Source of the DNA: Thermoanaerobaculales bacterium
GTDB lineage: Bacteria; Acidobacteriota; Thermoanaerobaculia; Thermoanaerobaculales; Sulfomarinibacteraceae
Reading direction: 5' to 3'
Length of the DNA: 46,916 nucleotides
Assembly (NCBI GenBank): GCA_029287235.1
Contig: JARFRM010000213.1
Coordinates: forward strand, 1-46,916
Below, in pieces: positions 3,408-44,335 of this stretch (position 1 is the first letter of the stretch; every line of letters starts with the position of its first letter). The position numbers and the translations under genes are program-made. Below the pieces are notes generated by a model that made no database searches, had not been told where the DNA came from, and saw only the letters and a program-made list of their open reading frames with translations.

Positions 3408-4109
3408 TCACACCTCGGAAATTGGAATTTCAACGTTGTCTGCGGCGGCAAGAGCACGCCGAATGCGTTCGAATGAAGAAGTGATCTGCTCCTCGGCGCA
3501 GGCGGCGGCGGCCGCGACATCCCGACGCCTCATGTGGCTGACCAGAAGCTCGTGCTCGTTGCGCATCTCCGGCCCGAAGTCACCGAGATCGAGGCCGAGG
3601 AAGAAGAACCGCTGCATGGAAACCAGCAGGTTGCGGAGTACTGCGAACAGACGGTCATTCCGCGACAACGACGCGACCTCGAGGTGAAATCCGAGGTTTT
3701 TGTCGAGGAAGTCGACATACGACGCCCAGTCCGAGTAGGTGTACTCGGTGGCCGCGAGCTCTCCGAGGCGGTCGAGCTCTTCGTCGGTGGCGCGGGTGAC
3801 CGCCAGGGCCACGGCGCGGGTCTCGATGGCGATTCTGAGCTCGAAGCTGTCGGAGATCTCTTTCGGCGAGATCGGGCTGACAAAGTAGCCCTTGTAGGGA
3901 ATGGCGGTGAGGAGCCCTTCCTGTTGGAGCCGCCGGCACGCTTCGCGCACGGGCACTCTGCTGGTCCCATAGGTGTCGGCGAGGGCCTGCTCGGCGAGGG
4001 CGGCGCCCGGCCTGTGACACAGGGTGATGATGTCCCGCTTGAGAGATCGGTAAACCCCCTCGGCCGCGGTTCGGCGTGGAGGAGCCGCAGTGGTGTGGGA
4101 ATCGACCAT
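3408..4109 (-). CDS. GntR family transcriptional regulator, FCD/FadR subfamily
   Basis: A 233-residue regulator. Residues about 15-78 form the winged helix (the recognition-helix region reads SRVPVREACRRLQQEGLL) and about 85-220 form an all-helical FCD effector domain. In the FCD part, an Asp136-x5-His142 pair, His186 and His192 match the usual metal-binding pocket, suggesting a small carboxylate ligand. The ATG at 4109 is chosen over the longer frame because two GTATAC operators and the promoter lie immediately upstream. With a -10 box seven bases before the ATG and no Shine-Dalgarno, the message is probably leaderless. It is co-transcribed with the aminotransferase one base downstream. It probably represses its own operon and is relieved by the pathway metabolite; the metabolite is unknown. 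Confidence 0.92.
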   Translation of the reverse strand: MVDSHTTAAPPRRTAAEGVYRSLKRDIITLCHRPGAALAEQALADTYGTSRVPVREACRRLQQEGLLTAIPYKGYFVSPISPKEISDSFELRIAIETRAVALAVTRATDEELDRLGELAATEYTYSDWASYVDFLDKNLGFHLEVASLSRNDRLFAVLRNLLVSMQRFFFLGLDLGDFGPEMRNEHELLVSHMRRRDVAAAAACAEEQITSSFERIRRALAAADNVEIPISEV

Positions 4110-10741: not shown

Positions 10742-11770
10742 TCAGCTCTCCTGGCCTTCGTTGGGCACGGCAAGGACCTCGAGGATCTTGTCGCCGATGT
10801 TCTGGATGACATCGCTCGACCCGTAGGAGTCGGCAAAACGGATCGCGTTGCGAATGGCCTTGGCGGTCGATCGGCCGTGGCCGATGAGGCAGGCGCCGTT
10901 GACACCGAGCAGGGGCGCGCCGCCGTGCTCGGAGTAGTCGACCTTCCGTTTGACGTTGCGAAAAGCACCTTTTGCCAGAACCAGACCGGCCCCATAGAGG
11001 GGTGACTGCCGGGCTTCCTCCTTGAGCATCCCGACCACCATCTCACCGAGTCCTTCAGCCACCTTGAGGATGACGTTGCCGGTAAAGCCGTCACAGACGA
11101 CCACATCCACGTTGCCGGTGAAGACATCCCGGCCTTCCACATTGCCGATGAAGTTGATCCCGGCCCCCTTGAGAACTCGGTACTGCCGACGAATCCGCGG
11201 CCCCCCCTTGGTCTCCTCTTCGCCCACCGACATCAACCCGACCCGTGGTTCTTCCACGCCGAGCACCGCCGAAGCGTAGTACGAGCCCATGACCGCGAAC
11301 TGAACCAGCTGTTGAGGCTTGGCCTCTACGTTGGCGCCGACATCGAGAACCAGGGTGTGGCCGTCCAGCTTGGGCAGGATCGCGGCAAGGGCGGGCCGGT
11401 CGACGCCACCGATCATACCGAGGGCGGATTTGGCTGCGACCCACGCCGCCCCCGTGTTGCCGGCAGTCACCATGGCCGATGTGCGCCCGCTGCGAACCAG
11501 ATCGGCGCACACCGAGAGCGACGAATTGCGCTTGCCTCGGAGCACCGTCATCGGAGGATCCTGCATCCCGACGACATCGGCGGCATCCACCAGTTCAAGA
11601 CCGCTGGGAATCGATCGAAATCGTCCGAGCTCCCGGCGCAACCGCTTGATGGGACCAACCAGAAAGACGGATTGATCGAATTCAGAGACGGCGTCCAGTG
11701 CCCCCTGGATCCGGATCTGGGGCGAGCCGTCGCCTCCCATGGCATCGAGTGCGATGGCCCGCGTGGCCAT
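10742..11770 (-). CDS. plsX: Phosphate acyltransferase PlsX
   Basis: A 342-residue enzyme that makes acyl-phosphate from acyl-ACP, the first step of phospholipid synthesis through PlsY. It begins with the family signature RAIALDAMGGDGSPQ and has the conserved VTAGNTGA at about residues 99-106, GLMSVGEEE, and CDGFTGNVILK. The length is typical. A GTG one codon upstream (11773) is an alternative start. It lies 40 bp downstream of rpmF and is coupled to fabH. Confidence 0.95.
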   Translation of the reverse strand: MATRAIALDAMGGDGSPQIRIQGALDAVSEFDQSVFLVGPIKRLRRELGRFRSIPSGLELVDAADVVGMQDPPMTVLRGKRNSSLSVCADLVRSGRTSAMVTAGNTGAAWVAAKSALGMIGGVDRPALAAILPKLDGHTLVLDVGANVEAKPQQLVQFAVMGSYYASAVLGVEEPRVGLMSVGEEETKGGPRIRRQYRVLKGAGINFIGNVEGRDVFTGNVDVVVCDGFTGNVILKVAEGLGEMVVGMLKEEARQSPLYGAGLVLAKGAFRNVKRKVDYSEHGGAPLLGVNGACLIGHGRSTAKAIRNAIRFADSYGSSDVIQNIGDKILEVLAVPNEGQES

Positions 11771-11810
11771 CACTCACCCGCACAACTGAGATTCGGTCGC
11801 TCCACGAGCG

Positions 11811-15024: not shown

Positions 15025-16749
15025 GTGAAGACGAAGTGGATCACCATCATTCTGGCTCTTTGCCTCGGCGCATCTGTGGTCCTCGCCCAGGACGATGAGA
15101 CGACCCAACCGGCGCCGCAAGACGCCGTGGGTGGGCTCCCGTTCGCCGGCGAGGTCGATGTGACGGTGGTGACCGTCAACGTCTACGTCACCAACAAGCA
15201 GGGTCTGGCCGTTTCCGATCTCACCGCCGATGACTTTGTCCTGACCCAAGATGGAACCCCCCGGCCGATCAGCAACTTCGGTCTATTCACCGACGAGGTC
15301 TACCGCAGCTACTATAGCGGCCAGCAGCCTCCAACCGGCCAACCCACCCCGACGCCCGTCCCCGGAACCGAGACGCTTTCAAAAGACAGCTTCCGCCCGG
15401 TCTACGTGGTGCTCTATTTCGACAACGCCAACTCGCGGTCCCTCGATCGAAATCGGCTCATCACCCAGATGCGCACCTTTGTTCGGGAAACCCTGCAACC
15501 ACCGGTGCAGATGATGGTCATCTCCTACAACAAGTCGTACGACGTGCTGCAGACCTTCACGGACGACCAGAGAGAGATCTACAACGCCCTCCGCGAGGTC
15601 AAAATGATGACCGGCGGTCGCACCGAGACCGACAACGCCCGTAAGGATATTCTCCGACAATTCTCAGACTCCCAGCGGAATTCCCAACAGGACGTCGGCA
15701 GTATGAACCGCGCCCACGGGATGATGATCGGCTTCGCCGAGGAGGAGGCCAACGATCTCCAGTTCACCCTCGGCGCCCTCAGGGACACGGTTACCATGCT
15801 GTCCGGCCTGCCGGGCAAAAAGGTCATCGTCTATGCCTCCAACGGCCTCCCCATGATTGCCGGCCTCGATCTCTTCTACGCCTATGCCAACACCTACCAC
15901 GAGTCCTCGGCCATCACCGAATCCGCCCGCTACAACATGAACCGCCACTTCAACTCTCTTGTCTCCAACGCCAACGCTCAGGACATCAGCTTCTATACAT
16001 TCGGCGTCGGCGGGCTCGAGAACCCCACGCTGTCGTCGGCCGAGCTCGGCACCGCGCAGGATTCCATGTCCGCGAGTATCGGGATGCAGAACTACCTCGA
16101 TCCCCTGCGTTTCATGGCCGACTCGACCGGGGGAGCCTGCACCGTCAACACCAATGATTTCACCGCCGGACTCGAGAAGGTCGGACAAGATTTCTTCACC
16201 TACTATTCCCTCGGCTACACCCTTCATCAAAGTGGTCTCGACAAGGTCCACAGGATCAAGGTCGAGCTTCCCAACCACCCCGACTATCGGGTCCGCTACC
16301 GACAGCGTTTCGTCGAGAAGAGTCTCGAGAGCAGGGTCCAGGACAAAGTCGTGACGGGCCTCATGTTCCCCCTCGACGACAACCCCATGCAGATCATGAT
16401 CGAGATCGGTAGCCAGGGCCCCGCCGGCGAGACCCGGTGGATGGTGCCCTTCAAGCTGTCGTTCCCCCTGCGAAGGGTGGCCCTCCTGCCTACCGGCGAG
16501 GACTATGTCGGCAACGTGACCTTGTTTCTCGCCGCTCGAAACAGCAAGGGGGACCGTTCCGACGTGGTCCGCCAGAATCACGAGATCCGGGTCAAGGCGG
16601 CCGACTACGACGATGCGCAGCTCAGGCGCTACACCATCACGGCCAATCTCCTCATGGAGGAGGGAAGCCACAACGTCGCCGTGGGTATTCTCGACCCCGT
16701 CACCCGCAACGCCTCGTTCTCAACGACCAAGGTGACGGTGAGGGAGTAG
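15025..16749 (+). CDS. Secreted VWFA-related domain protein (acidobacterial type)
   Basis: A 574-residue exported protein. A signal peptide covers residues 1-21 (cleavage after SVVLA). A short beta domain (about 43-90, DVTVVTVNVYVTNKQGLAVS and LTADDFVLTQDG) is characteristic of the VWFA-related proteins numerous in Acidobacteria. A Pro/Thr linker follows, then a von Willebrand A-like domain from about 125, whose metal site is degenerate (DNANS at 133-137 in place of DxSxS). The C-terminal 200 residues are beta-rich. The start is GTG 15025 with GGAGGTG five bases upstream; a longer in-frame ORF to 14944 lacks a signal. Function unknown, probably envelope or extracellular binding. Confidence 0.87.
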   Translation: MKTKWITIILALCLGASVVLAQDDETTQPAPQDAVGGLPFAGEVDVTVVTVNVYVTNKQGLAVSDLTADDFVLTQDGTPRPISNFGLFTDEVYRSYYSGQQPPTGQPTPTPVPGTETLSKDSFRPVYVVLYFDNANSRSLDRNRLITQMRTFVRETLQPPVQMMVISYNKSYDVLQTFTDDQREIYNALREVKMMTGGRTETDNARKDILRQFSDSQRNSQQDVGSMNRAHGMMIGFAEEEANDLQFTLGALRDTVTMLSGLPGKKVIVYASNGLPMIAGLDLFYAYANTYHESSAITESARYNMNRHFNSLVSNANAQDISFYTFGVGGLENPTLSSAELGTAQDSMSASIGMQNYLDPLRFMADSTGGACTVNTNDFTAGLEKVGQDFFTYYSLGYTLHQSGLDKVHRIKVELPNHPDYRVRYRQRFVEKSLESRVQDKVVTGLMFPLDDNPMQIMIEIGSQGPAGETRWMVPFKLSFPLRRVALLPTGEDYVGNVTLFLAARNSKGDRSDVVRQNHEIRVKAADYDDAQLRRYTITANLLMEEGSHNVAVGILDPVTRNASFSTTKVTVRE

Positions 16750-38874: not shown

Positions 38875-39939
38875 TCAGTCGAGTAGACCGTCGATGATCT
38901 CCGCCATCTTCGAGCCCACGAGATCGAGGGAGTATCTCTCCTCGACCACCCCTCGCGCCTTCAGACCCATCGTTGATCTCAGCTCCGGATCTCGAGTGAG
39001 GCGGAGAAGGTTCTCGACCCACTCGTCTTCGTTTGACGCGAACTCTCCACTCACCCCCGGCTCGACGATCTCGCGGTTCATTCCCACCGGTGACAGCACC
39101 ACGGGCAGTCCCATGGCCATGCACTGGAGTGCCTTGTAGCTGCACTTGCCTCGATTCCAGGGCGTGTCCTCGAGCGGCATCAATCCGATGTCGAAATCCT
39201 CCAGACAGGCCGCTTCCCGATCGATGGTGAACCGCTCGAAATCGATCGGCAGATCGCATGGAGGTGGTTCTCCGTTGGACACCACCTTGAGCCTCACCGC
39301 CGGATTCTCGGCCAGGACCCGTCGGAAGACCGGCAGCAGGTGGGTCCACTGCACAAGATTGCCGGCGGTCCCGATCCAGCCGAGAACACACCGTTCGCGA
39401 GGCCCTCCGCCCTCGGCGGGCTTGAAGATCCCGGTATCGACACCGGTCGGGAGGACCACGGTTCGACCGGAGGGGCCGGCTTCAGCGAGATGGTCGTTTC
39501 CGGCAATGATGAGATCAGCGGCGGCCACCGTTGCCTGAAAGTTCCGACGGTACCTCCTCTTGGCCTTCCCGCTCTGAGGTTCATCGGGCGAGGGAAGATA
39601 GACGGCATCGTCATACTCGTACACGACCTTGGAGGCGACCCGTCGCAGCAGCCTTGCGGTCACTCCAGGAAAGGTCTTGCGGTAGACCACCACCACCTCC
39701 GCCCTCGAGGCGGCAGCCAGATCCCGCACCAGCTCCACCGGCCGCAGTCCCCAACGCCTCCGGAGCCGGTTTGGATCGACCCCGATGGGGACCAGGGCCT
39801 CGACCCCAAGACCCCGGTCTTCAAGGTATGGCCTGTACGCCATCGCCCGGAGTCGGGTTCCCGGGTTCGCGCGATCCCCAACAGTGAGGAAGAGCACCCT
39901 GGACGGCGCTTTCACCACTGCTGTCTCAGCTCGATTCAT
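38875..39939 (-). CDS. Glycosyltransferase family 4 (GT-B)
   Basis: A 354-residue glycosyltransferase. It opens SRVLFLTVGDRANPGTRLRA, has YEYDDAVYLPSP, a loop VLGWIGTAGNLVQW, and the C-terminal region DFDIGLMPLEDTPWNRGKCS followed by YKALQCMAMGLPVVLSPVG, typical of GT4/Glyco_trans_1 in exopolysaccharide loci. The ATG at 39939 overlaps the stop of the fucose-synthase gene by four bases. Confidence 0.9.
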   Translation of the reverse strand: MNRAETAVVKAPSRVLFLTVGDRANPGTRLRAMAYRPYLEDRGLGVEALVPIGVDPNRLRRRWGLRPVELVRDLAAASRAEVVVVYRKTFPGVTARLLRRVASKVVYEYDDAVYLPSPDEPQSGKAKRRYRRNFQATVAAADLIIAGNDHLAEAGPSGRTVVLPTGVDTGIFKPAEGGGPRERCVLGWIGTAGNLVQWTHLLPVFRRVLAENPAVRLKVVSNGEPPPCDLPIDFERFTIDREAACLEDFDIGLMPLEDTPWNRGKCSYKALQCMAMGLPVVLSPVGMNREIVEPGVSGEFASNEDEWVENLLRLTRDPELRSTMGLKARGVVEERYSLDLVGSKMAEIIDGLLD

Positions 39940-40874
39940 GTCTGATTTTCGAGGAACCACCGATAGGTCTGCTCGACACCATCACCGAGCTCGAGCCGAT
40001 GGCTCCAACCGAGCTCGTGCAGGCGACTGACATCGAGGAGTTTCTGAGGCATACCGTCGGGCTTCGACACATCGAAGACGATCCTCGCCTCGGGGTACAC
40101 GATCGAGGCAACGAGCTCGGCCAGCTCGCGAATGCTCAGATCGACCCCGGTTCCCACGTTGACGTGTTCCGCCTCATCGTAGCGACGCATGAGATGAACG
40201 CAGGCATCCGCCAGATCATCGACATGTAGAAACTCACGCCGTGGCGAACCCGTGCCCCAGAGGACCACCTCTCCGCTCCCCGTCACCTTGGCCTCGTGGA
40301 AGCGACGAATCAACGCCGGCAGCACGTGCGAGCTCTCGAGATCAAAGTTGTCGTTGGGGCCGTAGAGATTGGTGGGCATGGCCGAGATGAAATCGCAGCC
40401 GTACTGTTCCCGGTAGGCCTGGCAGAGCTTGATCCCGGCGATCTTGGCCACCGCATACGACTCGTTGGTGGGTTCCAGGGGCCCGGAGAGCAGGTACTCC
40501 TCACGCATGGGCTGTGGACACTCACGCGGATAGATGCACGAAGATCCCAGGTAGAGCAACCGCTTGACGTCGTAGAGGTGGGCGGCGTGGACCACCGTCG
40601 CGTGGATCATCATGTTGTCGTAGATGAACTCGGCCGGCCGGGTGGAGTTGGCGAGAATCCCCCCCACCGTACCGGCGACCAGAAGTACGAACTCGGGCCG
40701 GTTGGCCTTGAACCAGTAGTTCACCGCCGCCTGGTCACGCAGATCGAGCTGGTCGCGGGTGGCGGTGAGCACCGAGTCGAAGCCCTCGTCCTCGAGCCGT
40801 CGGACCAGGGCCGAGCCTACCAGACCGGTGTGACCGGCGATGAAGATTCGGGCGGAGGTCGTCAGCTCGTCCAT
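39936..40874 (-). CDS. fcl: GDP-L-fucose synthase
   Basis: A 312-residue short-chain dehydrogenase/epimerase-reductase that turns GDP-4-keto-6-deoxymannose into GDP-L-fucose. The cofactor loop is GHTGLVG (14-20), the catalytic triad region is SSC at 111-113 with Tyr140 and Lys144 in ESYAVAK, and the substrate stretch is SCIYPRECPQPMREEYLL. The ATG at 40874 fits the family N-terminus. GDP-mannose dehydratase (gmd), the usual partner, is not in the window. It is coupled to the downstream GT4 by an ATGA overlap. Confidence 0.94.
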   Translation of the reverse strand: MDELTTSARIFIAGHTGLVGSALVRRLEDEGFDSVLTATRDQLDLRDQAAVNYWFKANRPEFVLLVAGTVGGILANSTRPAEFIYDNMMIHATVVHAAHLYDVKRLLYLGSSCIYPRECPQPMREEYLLSGPLEPTNESYAVAKIAGIKLCQAYREQYGCDFISAMPTNLYGPNDNFDLESSHVLPALIRRFHEAKVTGSGEVVLWGTGSPRREFLHVDDLADACVHLMRRYDEAEHVNVGTGVDLSIRELAELVASIVYPEARIVFDVSKPDGMPQKLLDVSRLHELGWSHRLELGDGVEQTYRWFLENQT

Positions 40875-40965
40875 TGGTGCTTCATTTTCCCATAGCTGGG
40901 CCGTTCCTGCGCGGAGATTGCCTCGATCGGGCCCGCCGAACACCGATACTCGACCCGGACAAAGC

Positions 40966-40978
40966 TACAATCTCATCG
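40966..40978 (+). promoter_or_regulatory. -10 box directly ahead of a leaderless short ORF
   Basis: TACAAT (40966-40971) sits seven bases before an ATG at 40979. The same spacing is seen at selA (six) and the GntR gene (seven). No convincing -35 is present. The divergent fcl gene starts 92 bp away. Confidence 0.45.
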
Positions 40979-41026
40979 ATGGCAGTCCACTCTCGACCCT
41001 CTGAACCGGCGTCCCGCGCGCTGTGA
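40979..41026 (+). CDS. Candidate 15-codon leader ORF coupled to GT2
   Basis: ATG 40979 opens a 15-residue frame (MAVHSRPSEPASRAL) whose TGA stop (41024-41026) overlaps the GTG start (41023) of the glycosyltransferase as GTGA. The ATG is seven bases after TACAAT, so the transcript would be nearly leaderless. The GTG of the glycosyltransferase has no Shine-Dalgarno, so ribosomes may reach it only by finishing this frame. The peptide has no recognisable domain. It could also be a chance frame within a 5' untranslated region, or an N-terminal mis-start. Confidence 0.4.
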   Translation: MAVHSRPSEPASRAL

Positions 41027-42057
41027 CCGAACCGGCCCCACCCCCGTTTCCACCTCCCCCGGACGGAAAATCCGGTTGGCCGTGGACCTCCGACGATGAC
41101 GCCAACCCGCTGAGGCCCGGTCCGCGCAACAACGCCGCGCCAAGGGTCACCGTCATCACTCCGTCGTTCAACCAGGCTGAATATCTCGAAGAGGCCATCC
41201 GGTCGGTGGTCCTACAGGATCACCCCAACCTCGAGTATCTCCTCCTCGATGGGGGCTCCAGCGACGGCTCGGTGGAGATCATCGAACGCTACGGACCCTG
41301 GATATCGTTCTGGGTGAGCGAGCCGGACGGCGGTCAGGCCGAGGCGATCAACACGGCCTTCAGGCGGGCCACCGGCGAGTTCATCTGCTGGCTCAACTCG
41401 GATGACGTGCTGTACCAGGGGTATGTCTCGCGGCGGGTAGCGGAGTTCGGCACCCGTGAGAAAATCGACCTGATCTACGGCGACATCGACATGGGATGGG
41501 ACAGTGGCGAACGCAGCATCCTCCACGGGGAGCCGCCGTTCTTTCTCGACATGCTGCGGACGCTCAGGGTTGCCGTACCCCAACAGGGCGCGATGTGGCG
41601 CCGGTCCACCGTTGAAAAACTCGGGGGACTCGACCCGCGATGGCGGGTGGTGCTCGATCGGGAGTTCTTTCTCCGGATCCTCCACCGCGGTGCTGCCGAG
41701 TACATTCCGGGCCTCTGCGGGTTCTTTCGTCAGCACGACGGGGCAAAGTCCATCGCCGAAGCTACGGCCTGGGTCAACGAGCTGCCCACCATGTACTCGG
41801 AACTCTTTGCCGAGGAGAACCTGGAGCCCTCGGTCAGACGGCTCGAGCGCGAAACCATGGCCACCGTTCACCTCCTCTGCTCCGACATTCTGCGCGCCGC
41901 CGGTCGATGGAGCGGCTCACTGATGCACATGGCCAAGGCCATGCGCTGGCACCCGACCCACGCCATTTCGAGTTTCTTCAGCGCGCGACTCGCGGGGCTT
42001 CGCCGTCGTTTTTCGGGTCAACCCGGCAGCACCGGCACCCGTCAGGAGCCGATGTGA
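41023..42057 (+). CDS. Glycosyltransferase family 2
   Basis: A 344-residue GT-A enzyme. After a proline-rich first 40 residues the domain begins PRVTVITPSFNQAEYLEEAI, followed by YLLLDGGSSDGSVEII, SEPDGGQAEAINTAF and the DxD-like NSDD in FICWLNSDDVLY. Such proteins use nucleotide sugars at the inner membrane. The start is GTG 41023, without a Shine-Dalgarno but overlapping the stop of a 15-codon ORF. It ends overlapping the methyltransferase start as GTGA. Confidence 0.9.
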   Translation: MTEPAPPPFPPPPDGKSGWPWTSDDDANPLRPGPRNNAAPRVTVITPSFNQAEYLEEAIRSVVLQDHPNLEYLLLDGGSSDGSVEIIERYGPWISFWVSEPDGGQAEAINTAFRRATGEFICWLNSDDVLYQGYVSRRVAEFGTREKIDLIYGDIDMGWDSGERSILHGEPPFFLDMLRTLRVAVPQQGAMWRRSTVEKLGGLDPRWRVVLDREFFLRILHRGAAEYIPGLCGFFRQHDGAKSIAEATAWVNELPTMYSELFAEENLEPSVRRLERETMATVHLLCSDILRAAGRWSGSLMHMAKAMRWHPTHAISSFFSARLAGLRRRFSGQPGSTGTRQEPM

Positions 42058-43070
42058 ATCCGAAGGAAAAACCAACCACGGCGCCCCCTCTCGACGGGGC
42101 GGCCCAAACACCGACGACAGGCGTCACCGAGAAGATCGAGAAGGTCGAACGCTGTCCGCTCTGCGGATCTCGCCGGCTCTCTCTCCAGTTCGTTGCCCAT
42201 GACACGCTCCACGGGATGCCGGGTGAATGGGGTGTGGTCGCGTGCTCCGACTGCCGCCTGATGTGGACGTCGCCCCGGCCGACCAGGGAGACCGTGGCTT
42301 CGTTCTACCCGGAGGAGTACCAACCCCATGGGGGGCACTTCGCCCCGGCATCGCCAGGGGATCGCGCCCCCCTCCTTCGACGTCTCGCAGGTCGTGTACT
42401 GGATCCGAAGGAGGTCGTCATCCCAGACCCTCACCGCCCACGGCGGGTGCTCGAAGTCGGTTGCGGGTCCGGGCGGGTTCTCGCCGAGCTCGCCGACAAG
42501 GGATGGGACGCACACGGTCTCGAGCCATCGGCGGCCGCCGTGGCCACTCTGAGGGCTCACCGCGATCTCCCGGTCCGGGTGGGCACGATTGAAGAAACGA
42601 CATACCCCTCGGGATCGTTTGATCTGATCGTCGCTTCGATGGTGCTCGAGCACCTGCATGACCCGATTGCCGACGTCGTCAAGCTCCGGAACTGGCTCTG
42701 TCCGGGCGGCCACCTCACCGGCTCGGTACCCAACTGCGCAAGTTGGGAGTTTCGCTTCTTCGGTGCCGAGTGGTTTGCCCTCCAGCTTCCGACCCACCTC
42801 TTTCACTTCACTCCATCGACCCTCACCCTCCTTCTCGAAAAGGCCGGATTCACACACATCCGCATCCACCACCAACGCAATGTGAGCAACCTGATGATCC
42901 ACTTCGGCCGATTCCTCGAAAAACACCGTCTTCCCTCGGCGAAGATCTTCCTCGACTACCCCACCATCGGTCCCCGTGCTCTCAGGCTTGTGGTCCGACC
43001 GGCCGCTTCGGTCCTCGCCTGGTCCCGACAGGCGGGGAGAATCTCGTTTGTTGCAAAGCGCAGCCCATGA
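42054..43070 (+). CDS. Class I SAM-dependent methyltransferase with zinc-like N-terminus
   Basis: A 338-residue protein. The N-terminal knuckle has Cys34, Cys37, Cys64 and Cys67 (CPLCGS and ACSDC). The Rossmann domain has motif I at VLEVGCGSGRVLAEL (132-146), and SFDLIVASMVLEHLHDP. The Cys-pair plus methyltransferase arrangement is common for sugar C- or O-methyltransferases in O-antigen loci. The start GTG 42054 overlaps the GT2 stop (GTGA) and has CAGGAG upstream. It overlaps the next GT4 gene start as ATGA. Substrate not known. Confidence 0.9.
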   Translation: MNPKEKPTTAPPLDGAAQTPTTGVTEKIEKVERCPLCGSRRLSLQFVAHDTLHGMPGEWGVVACSDCRLMWTSPRPTRETVASFYPEEYQPHGGHFAPASPGDRAPLLRRLAGRVLDPKEVVIPDPHRPRRVLEVGCGSGRVLAELADKGWDAHGLEPSAAAVATLRAHRDLPVRVGTIEETTYPSGSFDLIVASMVLEHLHDPIADVVKLRNWLCPGGHLTGSVPNCASWEFRFFGAEWFALQLPTHLFHFTPSTLTLLLEKAGFTHIRIHHQRNVSNLMIHFGRFLEKHRLPSAKIFLDYPTIGPRALRLVVRPAASVLAWSRQAGRISFVAKRSP

Positions 43071-44335
43071 TCGAGACAGAGCGGCTTCCCCCCATCCGTC
43101 ATTTCAACACGAACTCATACGGGGGAGCGGCAACCGCGGCGCGGAAGATCCACGACTCCCTGGTGGCTTCCGGGATCGACAGCCGCTTCTACTTCGTGGA
43201 TGGAGACTCAGATGGGCCGAACTACGAGAAACTGCGCCTGGATCCGCGGTTCGGAGTCTGGGGCCGGCTCTTTCGCTCCGCTCTCCATCGGTTCAGACAG
43301 AGAGTCGGTTCCGCTGGATCGGCGATCTATGAGCCCTTCGGGTGGCCGACGATTCCCGGCCGCGCCCTCGATCTGAGCGTCGTCGAACCCGCTTCGATCC
43401 TCCATCTGCACTGGGTCGTCGGGCTCCTCGACTATCGGTCGTTTTTTCGTGGAGTGCCGGTCGGCACGCCGATTGTCTGGACTCTCCACGACATGAACCC
43501 CCTGACCGGAGGCTGCCACTATGCGTGGAGCTGTACCGGATTTGTCGATCAATGCCGCCATTGTCCTCAACTGGCCGGGCTCGCCGGCATCGCCATGGCA
43601 ATCAAGAGCCAGGACCTCAAGAAACAGGCGCTTTCACACCGAAATCTGCACATCGTCGCCAACAGTCGGTGGCTCGAGGAAGAGGCCAGAAAAAGCCGGA
43701 TCTTCGACTCGGCTCGGTCCTTCAGGACGATTCACCTTGGTGTCGATCCCGAGGCATTTCGACCTCGCGACCCACTCGCGGCAAGGCGACGGTTGGGTCT
43801 CGACGAGTCGAGGACGATCGTCGCCTTCGGCTCCGCTCGTCTCGACACCCCTCGAAAAGGATTCCGCGAACTTTGTGAGTCGCTCTCCCGCCTGGAAGCG
43901 AAGAACACGATCGAAGTTCTGACCTTTGGTGAACGGGGGTCCGCCGATGGGCCGGCGGGGATCACGTGGCGACACATCGGTCCCATCCACTCCACCGAGA
44001 AACTGGCGACCCTCTACAACGCGGCCGATATTTTCGTGATGCCCTCTCGCCAAGAGGCCTTTGGTCAGACCGCGCTCGAGGCATTGGCGTGCGCAACACC
44101 GGTCGTCGCGTTCGACGTGGGCGGAGTTCCCGATATGGTCCGTCCCAATCAGACCGGGCTGCTCGCCAGGGTCGGCGATGTCGAAGATCTGTCCGGACAG
44201 ATCTACACCCTTGTTGATGACCCCCGCGAGCGAGCTCGGTTGGGCAAAAACGGACGAAATCTGGTGGAAAGAGAGTTCTCCCTCGAACACCAAAGAGATG
44301 GGTATCTGGATCTTTACCAGAATCTTTCTTGCTAG
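43067..44335 (+). CDS. Glycosyltransferase family 4 with cysteine cluster
   Basis: A 422-residue GT-B enzyme. It opens IRHFNTNSYGGAATAARKIH. In the acceptor domain, VWTLHDMNPLTGGCHYAW begins a cluster of four cysteines (GGCHYAWSC, QCRHCP), seen in the WcaL-like group. The donor domain has SRQEAFGQTALEALACATPV. It is the last gene of the GT2, methyltransferase, GT4 run and starts with an ATGA overlap. A related but diverged gene lies at 44819-46069 on the other strand, convergent with this one. Confidence 0.92.
   Translation: MIETERLPPIRHFNTNSYGGAATAARKIHDSLVASGIDSRFYFVDGDSDGPNYEKLRLDPRFGVWGRLFRSALHRFRQRVGSAGSAIYEPFGWPTIPGRALDLSVVEPASILHLHWVVGLLDYRSFFRGVPVGTPIVWTLHDMNPLTGGCHYAWSCTGFVDQCRHCPQLAGLAGIAMAIKSQDLKKQALSHRNLHIVANSRWLEEEARKSRIFDSARSFRTIHLGVDPEAFRPRDPLAARRRLGLDESRTIVAFGSARLDTPRKGFRELCESLSRLEAKNTIEVLTFGERGSADGPAGITWRHIGPIHSTEKLATLYNAADIFVMPSRQEAFGQTALEALACATPVVAFDVGGVPDMVRPNQTGLLARVGDVEDLSGQIYTLVDDPRERARLGKNGRNLVEREFSLEHQRDGYLDLYQNLSC

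Follow-up and report, generated by a model that had tools for sequence, protein, structure and literature searches.

Leaderless short ORFs in described systems

Coupled leaderless short ORFs have been described in mycobacteria, where leaderless translation requires a 5' ATG or GTG and this codon alone suffices for it (Shell et al. 2015, PLoS Genet, PMC4633059). The available part of that paper gives RTGA coupling for 23 of 220 leaderless ORFs of 5-50 residues, vs 32 of 1,000 random sites; some of the coupled ORFs conserve their placement and not their sequence, and a peptide-independent delivery of ribosomes was proposed. A 2025 review in J Bacteriol (PMC12548453) covers, in its available sections, ribosome-delivering uORFs and MIRU insertions coupled at -4. 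Leaderless genes were also reported for Acidobacteria, where they make up 9.7-19.4% of the genes in three of three genomes (Zheng et al. 2011, PMC3160421, part of the text). A partial literature search, including parts of PMC3160421, PMC10783764, PMC12548453 and PMC4633059, found no description of coupled small ORFs in Acidobacteriota, and no transcript-start study for this phylum was found in it.

The locus analysed here lies in a stretch of 46,916 nucleotides (the window), which is one entire contig of the source genome G000 (5.07 Mb, 336 contigs). Like the mycobacterial coupled class, it has a predicted leaderless RTG, a frame of 5-50 codons, an RTGA overlap, and a peptide that is apparently unimportant. 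Unlike that class, as far as the available text describes it (PMC4633059), the frame belongs to an acidobacterial MAG of the order Thermoanaerobaculales, is known from sequence alone, shows no significant enrichment of its kind, and has no orthologous frame that was found. With the uORFs of the review (PMC12548453, in part) it shares a -4 overlap and a short ORF predicted here to bring a ribosome to the next start, with no other role. It also resembles the leaderless genes of PMC3160421 and of a Deinococcus-Thermus study (PMC12340547), in which a -10 box lies just upstream of the start codon; in the available parts of both, however, the subject is leaderless genes and not short coupled frames. 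The small frame is placed here as a predicted member of the known coupled class, in a phylum for which no description was found.

Sequence features of the 40966-41026 element

The first-pass annotation had described TACAAT, seven bases, an ATG, a 15-codon frame, and a TGA overlapping the GTG of the next gene. Each of these was confirmed to the exact base, as listed below.

40966-40971, + strand: predicted -10 box TACAAT (sequence; matrix score 11.0 bits)
40972-40978, + strand: seven-base spacer CTCATCG (sequence)
40978-40979, + strand: predicted transcription start, G 40978 or A 40979 (from the spacing of the box)
40979-41026, + strand: 15-codon leaderless-type frame MAVHSRPSEPASRAL with its TGA (sequence)
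40979-40981, + strand: start codon ATG of the small frame (sequence)
41024-41026, + strand: stop codon TGA of the small frame (sequence)
41023-41026, + strand: GTGA junction, small-frame stop on the glycosyltransferase start (sequence)

The box, the spacing, the frame and the junction are computed directly from the letters. The spacing of the box and the genome-wide peak at 6-7 bases predict an mRNA whose 5' end would be AUG or G-AUG. No TANNNT other than TACAAT occurs on the + strand in 40875-41022. No recognisable match to a -35 element was found upstream of it, and a generic sigma-70 scan returned no promoter in 40700-41300. The length of the frame, 15 codons, falls inside the 5-50 codon range of the class of Shell et al. 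2015. The 161-base region around the element is single-copy in G000, contains no repeat structure, and had no match in 19 other genomes of the family. A MIRU-like insertion was ruled out on the first two of these grounds.

Leaderless-type starts in the source genome

A sample of 1.61 Mb of G000 was analysed, in which 1,311 genes were predicted by a simple hexamer gene finder with approximate starts. The first contigs sampled were mostly selected for TACAAT-N7-ATG, so that counts including them are inflated. Among 630 genes that follow a gap of at least 40 bases on contigs not selected for the box, TANNNT-N6/7 was found at 54 in-frame ATG and 25 GTG, vs 12.1 and 5.9 per control spacing pair. 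The boxes peak 6-7 bases before ATG/GTG. The median SD energy at chosen starts is -1.7 with a box (n=59) and -4.9 without a box after a gap (n=695). Because these two independent signals, the spacing peak and the weak SD, agree, leaderless gene starts are predicted to be common in G000. By sequence signals alone, this agrees with the published Acidobacteria range.

The TACAAT box scores 11.0 bits with a matrix built without the window. This score is reached by three of 95,319 ATG/GTG in 1.6 Mb, including the site itself, and the other two are starts of predicted genes. Retraining without the box-selected contigs left the score nearly unchanged (11.1 bits). The 21 sites with at least 10 bits comprise 12 gene starts, the small frame, six other gap sites before genes, and two intragenic sites. 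TACAAT-N7-ATG occurs 13 times genome-wide and the reversed pattern 0 times; the spacing from TACAAT to the start peaks at 6 (18 among the 100 places listed, from a total of 126). Judged by these scores, the predicted TACAAT promoter is of the leaderless type beyond chance expectation. A G lies two bases 5' of the box. Among 104 leaderless-like starts in the sample of G000, 59% have this G, in a profile that includes box-selected contigs. A -35 element is scarce at these starts, with TTGAC at spacer 17 in 6 of the 104. The upstream G and the rare -35 at leaderless-like starts of G000 recall extended -10 promoters.

The glycosyltransferase start and the following genes

The small frame precedes a family 2 glycosyltransferase gene, the first of three + strand genes linked by four-base overlaps. 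The genes around the element are:

41023-42057, + strand: family 2 glycosyltransferase PF00535, GTG start without SD (domain match; the start fits four homologues)
41023-41025, + strand: GTG start codon of this glycosyltransferase (sequence)
42054-43070, + strand: methyltransferase PF13489, joined by a GTGA overlap at 42054 (domain match)
43067-44335, + strand: group 1 glycosyltransferase PF00534, joined by an ATGA overlap at 43067 (domain match)
39936-40874, - strand: divergent NAD-dependent epimerase PF01370, likely start 40874 (domain match)

The epimerase of 39936-40874 is presumably GDP-fucose-synthase-like. The -4 overlap is the commonest same-strand spacing in the first 0.83 Mb sampled (72 cases; the next, -1, has 12). 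From the upstream stop to the conserved GWPW motif, GTG 41023 is the sole ATG, GTG or TTG in the glycosyltransferase frame. It lies 18 residues before WPW, and the chosen starts of four homologues of the order lie 15-21 residues before it; two of these homologues (L002, L006) have further in-frame start codons upstream of the chosen starts. By this comparison GTG 41023 fits the starts of the homologues, and an N-terminal extension is not predicted there.

The fitting start and the missing SD are likewise computed results. The earlier statement that the GTG has no Shine-Dalgarno was upheld by a duplex energy of -1.7 kcal/mol at 41023, as computed with assumed anti-SD letters and not with those of the 16S of this genome. 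Starts with a four-base overlap (n=141) have a median energy of -6.5, and random positions (n=3,000) one of -3.0. A value of -1.7 or weaker was found for 20% of the after-gap starts without a box, 11% of the four-base-overlap starts, and 29% of the random positions. GTG 41023 is not itself a leaderless start, with -15.9 bits on the promoter matrix.

Coupling in the genome and conservation of the frame

The small frame stays open in 83% of shuffles. Given the promoter, the chance of the GTGA overlap is about 7% (83% open, 1/3 for the frame, about 1/4 for the A), and the overlap alone is only mildly surprising. In the gaps of G000, 6 of 39 leaderless-like short ORFs of 5-50 codons are RTGA-coupled (six frames, five genes), a count inflated by box-selected contigs. 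For comparison, 23 of 195 are coupled when the box is at another spacing (p 0.35), and 221 of 2,450 when no box lies at spacing 5-8 (one-tailed Fisher p 0.14). With an upstream G, 4 of 17 short ORFs are coupled. Pooling with 0.8 Mb from four relatives gave 7 of 48, likewise inflated, vs 304 of 3,183 (p 0.17) and vs 27 of 243 (p 0.32). On contigs not selected for the box, a promoter score of at least 8 left three coupled ORFs at spacing 6/7, and three and none at two control spacings. A significant genome-wide excess of leaderless frames with RTGA coupling did not emerge from any of the four counts, in G000 or with the pooled relatives. Missed upstream genes probably inflate the baseline, and in the absence of mapped transcription starts the test has little power.

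Other frames with this arrangement were also seen. On the - strand of the window, at 11770-11805, TAGACT is followed by seven bases and a GTG that opens a leaderless-like frame of 11 codons (VERPNLSCAGE). Its TGA overlaps the GTG (11773) or ATG (11770) start of a gene that ends at 10742; the TAGACT box is weaker and lacks the upstream G. A leaderless-like frame of 16 codons on the - strand of L032 (about 4000-4062 of the reverse complement) is ATGA-coupled to a TonB-dependent receptor, whose start also carries an SD (GGAGG).

The nearest homologue of the glycosyltransferase, in G003 of the same family, is 48% identical, and no closer one was found among 36 other genomes of the order. The small frame is missing there while the glycosyltransferase is present, and none of the nine homologous loci compared within the order has it (L010, at a contig end, was omitted). 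Conservation of the frame across relatives, which had been suggested as a check, was not borne out; for the frame itself, this is an outcome that the first-pass annotation had named as refuting. Most of the nine loci have an open frame of at least 60 codons, a putative gene, that ends near the possible start. At three of them (L007, L008, L011), a leaderless-type box lies directly before a possible start of the glycosyltransferase homologue itself. In G003, the gene immediately upstream, on the same strand, is the epimerase homologue. Since the likely glycosyltransferase start overlaps the end of this gene by 14 bases, coupling of some kind may persist in G003 with a different upstream partner.

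Parallels at the permease and UbiA genes

Three further coupled cases of G000 involve UbiA, an aminotransferase/phosphotransferase protein, and the TonB receptor; the family comparison covers UbiA. One of the six RTGA-coupled frames of G000, at L107:4468-4584, precedes a binding-protein-dependent permease (PF00528) that starts at L107:4581. A permease survey matched 18 of 20 genomes of the family and gave 12 loci, of which 11 were usable (L261 was omitted, as its match is not at a gene start). At four of the 11 loci (G000, G006, G012, G019), GCC-TATAAT-N6-GTG opens a frame that ends in the ATGA of the permease:

L107 (G000): small frame of 38 codons upstream of the permease start
L254 (G012): small frame of 10 codons upstream of the permease start
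L255 (G019): small frame of 40 codons upstream of the permease start
L256 (G006): small frame of 10 codons upstream of the permease start

When the four leaders are aligned, nothing but the box, the GTG and the junction is common to all, and the two 10-codon bodies are 38% identical. The permease pair is one in which the predicted architecture, and not the peptide, is kept in four genomes, three of which (G006, G012, G019) belong to one genus. Given G000, the chance of the frame and its openness in the other three loci is about 2% (0.656 x 0.810 x 1/3 x 0.375 x 1/3). Some SD pairing was found at two of the four permease starts (-6.5, -5.1). In L254, short tandem-like GATACCAGATACCGG-type repeats lie upstream of 1459, just 5' of the permease promoter.

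At the other seven loci, a solute-binding-protein gene (PF00496 in G002; tblastn shows homology across all seven) lies upstream, and its end falls anywhere from 4 bases inside the permease start to 63 bases before it. This direct junction is missing in all four small-frame loci. The solute-binding-protein gene is still upstream in G012 and G006, where the tblastn match ends about 190 and about 230 bases before the permease start, respectively. No tblastn match to it was found within 639 bases upstream in G019 and 1,500 bases upstream in G000.

The promoters before UbiA were compared at two positions:

L067:7238-7324: box and spacer TATACTCCCGCGATG, coupled 24-codon frame (G000)
L157, near 15660-15680: box and spacer TATACTCCCGCGATG, UbiA gene itself (G002)

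The identical box and spacer lead to a coupled 24-codon frame (TTGA) in G000 and directly to the UbiA gene in G002. On these letters, the comparison is that of one putative promoter used two ways.

The small peptide as a possible sensor

Canestrari and colleagues reportedly described polycysteine leaderless attenuator uORFs in 2020. The small frame is similar in being short, of leaderless type and first in its operon, and differs in having neither a regulatory codon run nor an attenuator structure. Its GC3-GC2 is 0.0, compared with a gene mean of 0.34, and 4% of 15-codon gene pieces are so low. Its hexamer score is lower than that of 99% of such pieces. Nothing in these measures suggests a functional or selected peptide, though fifteen codons are few. 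No regulatory codon run or single-amino-acid run was found in MAVHSRPSEPASRAL, and no terminator-like site in 40700-41300. Folding was not unusual (z = 0.50; equalled or bettered by 133 of 200 shuffles), and no Rfam family matched at its gathering score. By the folding, Rfam and terminator scans, no attenuator, riboswitch, antiterminator or SD-sequestering structure was found near the small frame.

These results bear on the possibility that the frame is a leader-peptide attenuator, in which stalling within the 15 codons would sense a metabolite or an amino acid and control the operon. The frame sits at the predicted 5' end of the operon, and leaderless cysteine-rich attenuating uORFs are known in mycobacteria, according to the available part of PMC13236596. 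The missing one-amino-acid run and terminator-like site, the fold z of 0.50, the Rfam search without a match at the gathering score, and the frame's lack of conservation make such a sensor extremely improbable at this locus. The first-pass annotation had proposed that the frame may be a leader peptide controlling the glycan operon; with no codon run, terminator, folding, Rfam match or coding signature, this proposal is unsupported.

Proposed mechanism and alternative explanations

We consider it probable that the leaderless small frame delivers ribosomes to the glycosyltransferase GTG that lacks an SD, and that the peptide does not act in sensing. RNA polymerase would initiate at G 40978 or A 40979 from TACAAT, and the message would open with the small-frame AUG. 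A ribosome would start on this 5'-terminal AUG, read 15 codons, and terminate at the UGA. The terminated ribosome might then re-initiate at the overlapping GUG and translate the glycosyltransferase, and translation would continue into the methyltransferase and second glycosyltransferase genes, which are linked by GTGA and ATGA. The peptide itself would have no role, and the small frame would be a device for ribosome delivery. In this scheme, we infer the transcription start, the translation of the small frame, the re-initiation, and any selection for the arrangement. The delivery reading is the best supported one because the predicted promoter is strong and of the leaderless type, the genome appears to use leaderless starts, the GTGA is exact, and the published class has the same anatomy. 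The permease parallel in the same family also favours the arrangement. The part of the earlier proposal in which the frame delivers ribosomes to the glycosyltransferase is likely on these grounds, while the part on leader-peptide control is not retained. The absence of the frame at nine loci and the lack of significant enrichment of the class count against delivery; the SD pairing at two of four starts, and the single genus of three of the four genomes, count against the permease parallel.

The frame might instead be incidental: the promoter would be real and the 5' AUG perhaps translated, but SD-less initiation would reach the GTG on its own, 44 bases downstream, and the overlap would be luck. 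The overlap chance of about 7% given the promoter allows this, as do the missing enrichment in G000 and the missing conservation of the small frame; in M. tuberculosis, short-ORF translation was described as pervasive and mostly non-functional (PMC9094748, part of the text). However, SD pairing at the GTG is weaker than in about 80% of the after-gap starts without a box, a ribosome that finishes the small frame necessarily halts on top of the GTG, and the permease case retains the architecture while the peptide changes. We regard an incidental frame as unlikely on this balance.

Two other explanations concern the start of the gene and the start of the transcript. The glycosyltransferase could be an ordinary leaderless gene with an N-terminal extension, from which a real or assembly frameshift produced the small frame. 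The promoter is of the same class as those of leaderless genes, and UbiA of G002 begins at a leaderless-type ATG after a box and spacer identical to those of the coupled 24-codon frame in G000. On the other hand, the chosen starts of the homologues (15-21 residues before WPW, compared with 18 for the GTG) leave no extension, and the small frame does not resemble coding sequence in its codons, which makes a frameshift very improbable. Alternatively, TACAAT might not be the promoter; the transcript would then start at another point of the divergent gap, without the small frame at its 5' end. The missing -35 and the negative sigma-70 scan in 40700-41300 would agree with this, but leaderless-like starts of G000 seldom have a -35 (6 of 104), no other + strand TANNNT lies in the gap, and the box is in the top three of 95,319 sites. 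We give very little credence to a start elsewhere, and ribosome delivery by the small frame is the reading that is preferred here.

Possible replacement of upstream genes

Beyond ribosome delivery at this one locus, leaderless mini-ORFs of these Acidobacteriota might act as substitutes for upstream genes where a coupling-dependent start no longer has its direct junction with the cistron before it, a general role that we regard as doubtful. The junction would be lost by inversion, gene loss or a widened gap, and a 5'-AUG/GUG promoter with any frame ending in RTGA would take over; such a course of events is possible and is put forward tentatively. The idea is attractive and is based on two loci, the glycosyltransferase (epimerase overlap in G003 vs the small frame) and the permease. 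The persistence of the upstream gene, further away, in two of the four permease loci makes it slightly less probable.

If this picture is true, ribosome delivery by leaderless mini-ORFs would not be restricted to mycobacteria and would occur in a distant phylum. Operon genes could survive rearrangement by keeping the overlap junction and swapping the upstream gene for a few codons. In that case, gene annotation in such genomes may overlook first cistrons and give no account of starts that lack an SD.
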